This document shows positions 48,180-50,962 of a stretch of DNA of 64,000 bases, one piece after another. Made by a program: the position numbers and the translations under genes. The notes under the pieces were generated by a model. That model was not told where the DNA came from, searched no databases, and worked only from the letters and a program-made list of their open reading frames with translations. Numbering within the stretch: the stretch's first letter is position 1; every line of letters starts with the position of its first letter. Source of the DNA: Altererythrobacter aquiaggeris (GTDB taxonomy: Bacteria > Pseudomonadota > Alphaproteobacteria > Sphingomonadales > Sphingomonadaceae); contig NZ_JBANRL010000001.1 in the NCBI RefSeq assembly GCF_037154015.1, positions 2,294,001-2,358,000 of the forward strand. The letters run 5' to 3'.

Positions 48180-48641
48180 TCAAACCAGCTTTGCCGAACC
48201 GCCGGTAGAGCCAAATCCGCCTTCACCGCGATCTGTATCATCCAATTGGGCCACTTCTTCCCATCTGGCACGTGTAACCGGTGCCAGCATCAACTGGGCG
48301 ACACGGTCGCCGCGCTGGATTGCAAAGGTGTCTTCACCGTGGTTTATCAGGATGATCTTCAATTCACCGCGATAGTCGCTGTCGATTGTGCCTGGCGTAT
48401 TGGGAACCGTAATTCCGTGTTTAAGGGCAAGACCCGAACGGGGGCGCACCTGAATTTCATAGCCCGCGGGGATTGCCACCGACAGGCCTGTCGATACTGC
48501 GTGCCGGCTTCCCGGCCGTATATTGATGGTCTCTGCTGCAACCACATCCATTCCTGCGGCGCCCCGCGTTGCATAAGCGGGCAATCCCAGCCCGGCACCA
48601 TGGGGCAATCTTTTCAGTTTCACGATTACATCATCAGTCAT
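48180..48641 (-). CDS. dut: dUTP diphosphatase
   Basis: 153 residues of the trimeric dUTPase family, which removes dUTP and supplies dUMP. The five motifs are visible: [43 protein letters not shown] and the C-terminal [10 protein letters not shown] that closes over the active site. Its start overlaps the coaBC stop by 8 bases, an order common near dnaA in alphaproteobacteria. Confidence 0.97.
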
Positions 48642-50337
48642 CGTCGCTCTCCGCTGGTTTGTTGAGCGCTTCGGCGATGCGTTCGATCAAAGCACGGGCC
48701 ACAGCAGGTTTGGGCATTTCTTCCAGGCTTTCGACCGTATCAGCTGTCACGATATGAATCAGATTGTCCTGCCCGCCCATCACGCTGTTTCCGACACCGC
48801 CAGACACATCATTTGCGATGATCCAGTCAACACCCTTGCGCTTGCGTTTAAGTTTGGCATTGCCGACCACATCGTCAGTCTCGGCTGCGAACCCGATCAA
48901 CAGCGCGGGGCGTTTATCGGAAGCAGACAGGTTCGCAAGGATATCGGGGTTCTCGCGCAGGAGCAGCGCCGGCGGGGCAGACCCGCGCTTTTTCATCTTG
49001 CTTTCGGCATATTCCTTGGTGCGCCAGTCGGACACTGCTGCCACCATCACCGCCACATCGCAGGGCAGTGCCGCCTTGACCGCCTTGGCCATTTCTTCAG
49101 CCGATTCGACATCGACACGGTCCACGCCGGGCGGCGTGGCCAGTGTGACCGGACCCGATACCAGTGTCACACGCGCACCCGCTGCAGCAGCCGCAGCAGC
49201 TATGGAATAGCCCTGCCGGCCTGACGAACGGTTGGCGATATAGCGCACCGGATCGATCGGCTCATGCGTCGGTCCGGCAGTGACCAGAACATGCTTGCCA
49301 AACAGCGGCCTGTGCTCAGGATCGTCTTCGAAGTCCGGCTGCCCCTCCAGCGGGTCAAATTCGGGGAAGGCATCTTCCGGTTCGCCGGCAAGCGCTTCAG
49401 GTATCCCCGCTGTGCTGTTTGCGACCTCGTGATTGATTGCCTGCGGATCGGTGGGCGGCGCCGAGCGCGCGGCGCCTTTCTTGGCCATCATCGGCGCGCC
49501 TAAATCTGGGGTGGGCAAATCAGGGGTGGGCCAGTCCGGGTCGGGCCAGTCGGGATCGGCATCCGGTTCACCCGGCATTTCGGACAGTGCCTCGGGGTTC
49601 GCTGCACCGCCTTCGAAAGCCTCGTCATACTCGATCTCGTCGTCCTGGATTCTACGCGGCATACTGCGCGAAATGATCGAAGACAGCATTCCGCCAAGGC
49701 CGCCCCTGGGCTCGGGTATTTCCGGCGAATCGTCTTCCGGTTCCAACGCTTCGACAAACTCTTCAATGTCGGCCTCGCCAGCCTCGCCAGGATCGAGAGT
49801 GAGGAAATCGGCAATCTCGAGCCAGATTGCCTCTGGCTCGGGCAGGCGGCCTGGGCCAAACTCACCACAGGCCATCGCTCCCTCGTCGGGATCGATTACC
49901 GTGACGCCGGCCTGGCGCAGCCACCCGACATTGCGCTGCGTAGCTTCGTGCTGCCACATCCGCACATTCATGGCGGGCACGGCCATCACCGGCTTATCGG
50001 TCGCCAGAATGAGCGTGGTGGCCAGATCATCGGCAATCCCCGACGCCATTTTGGCCAGCAGGTCTGCCGTGGCGGGGCAGACGACAACCAGATCAGCCTC
50101 CCGGCTCAGCTGGATATGCCCCATCTCCGCTTCGTTCTTCAGGTCCCACAACGTGGTATGAACCGGATTTTCGGAAAGCGCGGCCAGCGTCATCGGCGTG
50201 ACGAACTGGGCGCCGCCATTGGTCAAAACACAGCTTACTTCGGAACCGCTGCGTTTTATCAGCCGGATCAACTCGCATGATTTGTAGGCCGCGATACCGC
50301 CGCCGATCACCAAAAGAATACGTGCAGGTCGGCTCAT
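48634..50337 (-). CDS. coaBC: Bifunctional phosphopantothenoylcysteine decarboxylase/phosphopantothenate-cysteine ligase, with large insert
   Basis: 567 residues against about 400 in typical CoaBC. CoaC (about 1-178) has the catalytic H74 in MGHI, N124 in PAMN and C157 in [13 protein letters not shown]. CoaB (about 347-560) has [26 protein letters not shown] and [20 protein letters not shown]. Together they turn phosphopantothenate and cysteine into 4'-phosphopantetheine for coenzyme A. Between them lie about 165 extra residues (about 180-345), acidic and proline-rich, with [20 protein letters not shown]-type repeats. The 3' end overlaps dut by 8 bases. Confidence 0.93.
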
Positions 50338-50557: not shown

Positions 50558-50962
50558 ATGCGTCTCATCTTGACCGGAATCATCTTTTTGGGCGGTATGC
50601 TGTTCACTTATATGGGGTTCGACTTCCTGATCCGTCCCGATGGTGCCGGAGCAGGTCTGGGAATCGGTGCACTAACCACAACGGGAATTGCCGCAATTCG
50701 CGGCGATATGACCGCGTTCTTCCTGATTACAGGCCTGTCGATGCTGTACGGGTCCTGGAAGCGAAACGGCGACATCTTGTTAATCCCCGCATTCATGCTC
50801 GGCTGTGCGCTGTTCGGCAGAACGATCACTTTTTTCGTCAATGGCGGCGAGGAAGGATTTTTCATACCGATGATGGTCGAGGCTTTGTTCTGCATCGCCG
50901 CGTTAATCGGTAGCCGGCTTCTGCCCCACCCCGTCACCGATACCGGGACCGGGAGCGACTAA
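50558..50962 (+). CDS. DUF4345 family membrane protein
   Basis: 134 residues with about four membrane helices (for example LILTGIIFLGGMLFTYMGF and PMMVEALFCIAALIGSRLL). The layout matches the DUF4345 family: short N-terminal helix, GIGALTTTGIAAIRGDMTAFFL with a conserved RGD, and SMLYGSW. Function is unknown. AAGGGA stands before the ATG. It is convergent with ubiB, overlapping by four bases, and isolated in orientation between coaBC and ubiB. Confidence 0.82.
   Translation: MRLILTGIIFLGGMLFTYMGFDFLIRPDGAGAGLGIGALTTTGIAAIRGDMTAFFLITGLSMLYGSWKRNGDILLIPAFMLGCALFGRTITFFVNGGEEGFFIPMMVEALFCIAALIGSRLLPHPVTDTGTGSD

Follow-up and report, generated by a model that had tools for sequence, protein, structure and literature searches.

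Introduction

The coaBC gene of Altererythrobacter aquiaggeris lying in the window (the whole 64,000-nucleotide stretch analyzed here) raises the question of what a strongly acidic chain of 166 aa is doing between the two catalytic halves of an essential enzyme of CoA synthesis. The counterpart in Mycobacterium smegmatis CoaBC is a linker of about 10 residues that makes tight contacts with both domains, according to a passage of the report on that protein (PMC7794376). A search of the literature on CoaBC and PPC decarboxylase, covering the best matches by title and abstract opening, with subscription journals thinly represented, returned no publication on the insert or its role. The protein described here is a variant of CoaBC, in which the enzyme itself is ordinary and the new elements are a conserved motif module in the linker and its link to residues of CoaB.

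Results

CoaBC with a long, acidic linker

The coaBC product scored 397 bits against TIGR00521 (cut-off 219.7) and carries PF02441 and PF04127 on one chain, which places it in the CoaBC family (Table 1). H74, N124, C157, and N369, positions of catalytic type, were invariant in a 65-row alignment. The same was true of the lysines of K447-x-K449-K450, the K-X-K-K motif given as a CoaBC feature in a passage of PMC7794376. Judged from the sequence, both catalytic halves look intact, as a first-pass annotation of the locus had stated of the catalytic residues surrounding the insert. The closest solved full-length protein, both by Foldseek and by sequence, was M. smegmatis CoaBC (6TGV).

The same annotation had described the linker as unusually long, rich in D, E, and P, and probably disordered, and these features were borne out. 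With CoaC ending at residue 178 and the Pfam match to CoaB starting at 347, the linker comprises 27% D+E, 16% P, and 5% K+R with a net charge of -36, and its length departs from the usual short linker of about 10 aa, a feature that stands outside the formal family definition. In an AlphaFold2 model of the full protein (65 rows), the CoaC and CoaB cores were confident, and ten-residue averages of pLDDT were 38-52 across residues 201-330, a prediction of disorder. Docking of the motifs M1 and M2, described below, was absent from this monomer model, and they were also undocked, with a pLDDT of 49-67, in a second model that began shortly ahead of M1 and included the rest of the chain (62 rows; CoaB alone), so that the ten-residue means for M1 and M2 spanned 38-67 across both single-chain models.

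The dUTPase gene (PF00692; 48180-48641, minus strand) starts within the 3' end of coaBC, and the 8-base overlap suggests coupled expression. On the other side, a small ORF (50558-50962, plus strand) lies between ubiB and coaBC, shares 4 bases with the end of ubiB, and has a weak match to DUF4345, under the cut-off.

Table 1. Features of coaBC and of linkers in relatives. Positions are those of the window unless the cell names another locus.
Feature	Position	Strand	Remark
coaBC (bifunctional PPC decarboxylase / PPC synthetase)	48634..50337	-	567 aa, ATG start, uninterrupted ORF
CoaC (flavoprotein) domain, residues 6-178	49804..50322	-	Pfam PF02441
A143 codon, CoaC	49909..49911	-	insert-linked; mostly D in short-linker relatives
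Acidic insert between domains, residues 179-344	49306..49803	-	from domain limits, composition, and lengths in relatives
M0 (EALEPE), residues 196-201	49735..49752	-	moderate conservation; depending on the column, 56-81% of 102 rows have the majority residue
M1 (GGLGGLLSSIIPRSTPRR), residues 212-229	49651..49704	-	conserved hydrophobic/small segment with basic cluster at its end
Acidic/proline repeat run, residues 261-279	49501..49557	-	local 15-base repeat expansion; repeat itself unconserved
M2 (LLAxKGxAxSAPPTDPEAINHxV), residues 283-305	49423..49491	-	conservation in 102 rows
M4 (DPLxGQPxFDxDPEHRP), residues 328-344	49306..49356	-	older; present in many short-linker relatives too
CoaB domain, residues 345-567	48637..49305	-	Pfam PF04127 (DFP) match at 347-529
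K421 codon	49075..49077	-	most consistently insert-linked position
R451 codon	48985..48987	-	adjoins K-X-K-K motif; more weakly insert-linked
A454 codon	48976..48978	-	insert-linked
K499 codon	48841..48843	-	insert-linked basic position, less strict
Palindromic linker sequence	L023 2029-2169; L022 2023-2136		
Palindromic linker sequence	L015 2023-2196; L186 632-775	- (both)	

Conserved motifs within the insert

Within the insert, short conserved segments alternate with variable acidic spacers, and M1 and M2 were nearly unchanged across dozens of genera. Among the 102 insert-bearing rows, the M1 residues L214, G216, and L218 were kept in 92%, 85%, and 88%, respectively, and I222 in 100 rows; in M2, K287 and A290 were kept in 101 rows each, A293 and P294 in 100 each, P295 in 98, and T296 in 96, with A300, N302, and H303 at 97%, 89%, and 90%. 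Three residues, R224 of M1 and G288 and D297 of M2, were invariant in all 102. M4 was conserved as strongly (L330, 95%; G332, 94%; F336, 93%; P344, 99%). A decayed M1 was found at one locus (L009) and a decayed M2 at four (L087, L102, L140, and L144).

The pairwise amino acid identity over 71 rows was 0.63 for M1, 0.68 for M2, and 0.70 for M4, compared with 0.22-0.32 for the spacers, 0.83 for CoaC, and 0.74 for CoaB. The fraction of identical residues encoded by different codons in these rows was alike everywhere (0.44-0.57), indicating that the conservation of the motifs results from selection on the protein and not on the DNA. The repeats singled out by the first-pass annotation are indeed there, as two overlapping 15-base tandem repeats (2.0 and 2.5 copies) that form a local expansion, but they are the poorly conserved part of the insert, P277 (94%) being the only widely kept residue of the run; what is conserved is M1, M2, and M4. 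Taken together, the linker was shown to be a predicted-disordered, strongly acidic tether with at least two linear motifs, M1 and M2, upstream of the older M4.

Distribution and origin of the insert

Linkers of 104-216 aa were found in 102 of 193 distinct homologues, from Erythrobacteraceae and several Novosphingobium. A row was counted as insert-bearing when its linker had at least 95 aa, and the 91 other rows therefore include reduced linkers (e.g., 90, 66, and 51 aa) together with 12 rows from other families of the same order, in which the linker had 6-17 aa. In a sample of Pseudomonadota (80 genomes including that of the window, of which 76 were taken and the partial match G452 left out), no linker was estimated to exceed 36 aa, and the median was 6 (72 genomes had both halves among the matches listed, 71 of them from other families). 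The genera carrying the insert included Erythrobacter, Aurantiacibacter, Croceibacterium, Pontixanthobacter, Tsuneonella, Parerythrobacter, and Altererythrobacter besides the several Novosphingobium, and Pelagerythrobacter aerophilus was found with M4 only.

Two motif patterns run against the GTDB species genomes matched at least 120 stretches, of which at least 79 were confirmed as loci and kept, and the 41 unconfirmed ones were left aside; because the scan used two peptide patterns and covered at most 80 loci, it sets no bound on the distribution of the insert. Both CoaBC halves stood in one frame at 76 of the 79 loci, three of which had a short or reduced linker (L114, 90 aa; L123, 51 aa; L125, 26 aa), whereas two ended at a contig edge and one was split. 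At this last locus (L111, on a MAG contig), the frame of CoaC differs from that of CoaB, as a result of either a sequencing error or a real split. We kept 73 of the 76 loci (L060, L065, and L104 were left out, the arrangement of L104 being unclear), of which 64 entered alignment A2 and 61 of those alignment A3; the wider homologue set retained 197 of 208 loci, 175 of them distinct, and the final set held 193 distinct homologues.

The first-pass annotation had named two findings that would speak against its proposal. One, a frameshift giving the extra length, was ruled out together with an assembly error by 102 distinct homologues, spread throughout the clade, whose reading frame runs unbroken through these motifs. 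The other was presence in all relatives with a known role; the insert is common to many relatives, but no role for it appeared among the best literature matches.

Other origins were also considered. A protein model of the insert (E up to 10) matched only coaBC in the window's genome. The encapsulin shell family (PF04454) was present in 0 of 59 genomes including the window's, with the control matched in 3 of 14, and a role of the insert as encapsulin cargo was rejected. An origin from REP-like repeats was likewise rejected, as two patterns taken from relatives had 0 copies and 2 copies, respectively, in the window's genome (G000), the latter outside the window. In short-linker Sphingomonadaceae, we observed palindromic sequence lying in frame in the CoaBC linker (Table 1), and the two linker palindromes searched were interspersed repeats, with 45 copies at up to 2 mismatches in G012 and 29 in G033. 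It seems that repeats can land in the CoaBC linker and be tolerated there.

Probable gain and losses

In a domain tree built from all columns, the insert-bearing genes grouped in a single clade (107 rows), outside which lay most genes with M4 only or no insert; of the 13 rows in the order outgroup, one (L033) comes from the window's own family. When eight insert-linked columns were removed, insert-less rows nested among insert-bearing ones, requiring 9 changes, at least 5 of them forced by starred (well-supported) branches. This reduced tree comprised 85 of the 193 rows, chosen by hand, and was obtained by a short search with SH-aLRT support; the eight dropped columns are those that tell the two forms apart, and the nesting is thus not independent of the claim it bears on.

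The insert was probably gained once, upstream of M4, in the ancestor of the clade, and then lost or reduced several times. Change counts carry no direction, so we infer which changes are gains and which are losses. In the simplest story, the cases of loss or reduction are G086/G212, G203, G298/G091/G010 with their neighbors, L114/L123, G363/G384/G403, and G008/G186/G306. Part of the insert-less genes may reflect replacement by transfer rather than deletion, G010 being placed beside G140 of another genus in the reduced tree. By its occurrence in short-linker relatives too, M4 is older than the insert that carries M1 and M2.

Enzyme residues linked to the insert

The presence of the tether was shown in the alignments to correlate with basic residues at 421 and, less strictly, at 499, as well as with R451, A454, and A143 of CoaC. 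K/R421 was present in 102/102 insert-bearing rows but in 7/91 others; the corresponding counts were 93/102 and 5/91 for K/R499, 102/102 and 12/91 for R/H451, 102/102 and 23/91 for A454, and 97/102 and 21/91 for A/S143. These columns were picked and tested in the same data, and the covariation is therefore exploratory. A basic residue at 499 was absent from 9 of the 102 insert-bearing rows. The seven rows having K/R421 without the insert consisted of two with reduced linkers of 66 aa, three from other families, G232, and G212.

Several of these rows are of interest in themselves. G232 has K421 without the insert. The G212 locus (L230) has a 45-aa linker from which the insert is absent and still has R421 and K499, perhaps because the loss is recent. 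G008 and G186 (L013 and L177) have a 66-aa linker of charge 0 and -3, respectively, with M1 kept and M2 broken, and they keep R421 and R451 with A at position 499, a natural partial loss.

At least six genera hold both forms, with genera assigned by the search genus codes from the matches listed, and six of them were compared. By mean frequency, 421 and 499 tracked the insert in 6/6 mixed genera and were the only two of 392 columns to do so; A454 and A143 reached 5, and 451 reached 3. Under a strict rule, by which a residue had to occur in every bearer and in no non-bearer of the genus, 421 alone was on top (5/6, the miss being G212), followed by 459, 454, and 143 (4/6) and by 499 and 451 (3/6). 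In a seventh genus, with a reduced insert versus none, 421 fitted and 499 did not.

An independent-pairs test on the reduced tree, in which columns with a frequency difference below 0.1 were scored 0, placed 421 and 143 at the top of 209 variable columns, then 454, 499, 459, and 451. Starred branches held only 5 of the pairs, too few for significance (best attainable p, 0.0625), and the first tree, with only 2 starred pairs, was little informative. Compensation of charge over the whole domain was rejected, since CoaB charge correlated only weakly with linker charge overall (rho -0.24) and not significantly within the insert-bearing rows (0.11). In the AlphaFold2 model, 421 and 499 each lie towards the C-terminal end of a CoaB helix (413-423 and 490-501, respectively), which, from the topology of the Rossmann-type fold rather than from coordinates, would be its linker-entry side.

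Discussion

The explanation we favor, tentatively and at somewhat less than an even chance, is that the linear-motif tether acts together with the CoaB of its own enzyme, with docking inside the dodecamer as the likeliest mode. In the M. smegmatis enzyme, the loop that closes the CoaB site carries K-X-K-K and comes from the opposing protomer, according to a passage of PMC7794376. Residues R451 and A454 come directly after the K-X-K-K motif in the protein studied here, and it is their position beside this loop, together with that of 421 and 499 at the presumed linker-entry side, that leads us to favor a tether acting on its own CoaB. The covariation, as a signal in sequences, points at least as much to the own enzyme as to an outside partner. 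The tether and the linked CoaB positions would form one unit, in which M1 and M2 would dock on CoaB of the same or a neighboring subunit, taking over from the tight contact that a linker of about 10 residues normally provides. Such docking could perhaps hold the CoaB dimers against the CoaC core or bias the loop that closes the CoaB site, and the outcome would be a tuning of CoA synthesis. A more specific version, which we consider rather unlikely, is that an essential CoA enzyme has acquired a built-in regulatory tether, M2 and/or M1 being a ligand tethered to the enzyme that would dock in trans on the CoaB dimer and gate its nucleotide/substrate loop. Such control or scaffolding of CoA synthesis would be confined to one clade, in which the tether and its docking residues would have been lost together several times.

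The main rival, which we rank below a tether acting on its own CoaB while considering it a real possibility, is that M1 and M2 serve for docking to a second protein, such as a CoA-pathway enzyme or a regulator of the PII type, or to the membrane, with the linked CoaB positions belonging to the same site and reverting once this contact disappears. The first-pass annotation had likewise suggested that the insert may recruit a partner. A disordered chain with two short conserved motifs set apart from each other is what partner binding typically looks like; neither AlphaFold2 model places these motifs on the chain itself, and in M1 hydrophobic residues recur at intervals of 3-4 and the tail is basic, with a hydrophobic moment (0.43-0.49) that is unremarkable taken alone and lies below the maximum of the insert (0.58, near residue 189). 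Furthermore, the PII protein GlnZ of Azospirillum binds CoaBC weakly, as stated in a passage of PMC7646526, but this contact comes from a bacterium outside the clade. Also against this rival, the insert model matched solely coaBC in the window's genome, and encapsulin, one candidate host for such a peptide, was found in none of the 59 relatives.

It is improbable that the insert is a passive acidic spacer and that the basic residues of CoaB just relieve charge repulsion. Spacer length and sequence do vary freely, short-linker relatives tolerate repeat elements at this place, and the insert is missing in several lineages, all of which would suit a spacer. However, conservation is far higher in M1 and M2 than in the spacers around them, and G008 and G186 keep M1, R421, and R451 although their linker is no longer acidic. 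The suggestion that the insert serves purely to space the two halves is thus countered by the conservation of M1, M2, and M4. An artefact, by frameshift, assembly error, or the recent insertion of a repeat element, has practically no likelihood, as REP-like repeats do occur in this linker of other sphingomonads but the same motifs recur in one frame across the clade and neither repeat tested has a copy in the window.

A tethered peptide co-evolving with CoaB would expose a control surface on CoaBC and would be an example of linear motifs arising within a metabolic enzyme. As forms with and without the insert exist inside single genera, the mechanism is directly testable.

Among known systems, M. 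smegmatis CoaBC (Dfp, 6TGV) is alike in both domains and catalytic motifs, with the present protein far above the TIGR00521 cut-off, and different in that the present protein joins the domains by 166 aa rather than about 10 and has conserved motifs and linked CoaB residues. Yeast Hal3/Sis2, a moonlighting relative of PPCDC, has an acidic tail and is not known to carry a fused CoaB. It resembles the case described here as a CoaC-type protein that regulates another protein, the phosphatase Ppz1, according to the abstracts of two reports (PMC9604783, PMC6168597). Hal3/Sis2 is eukaryotic, and the likeness is drawn from descriptions of its function. SSB tails are disordered tethers with conserved peptide ends, and the insert shares with them an acidic disordered chain bearing short conserved motifs; here, by contrast, the tether is internal and lies between the two halves of a metabolic enzyme.
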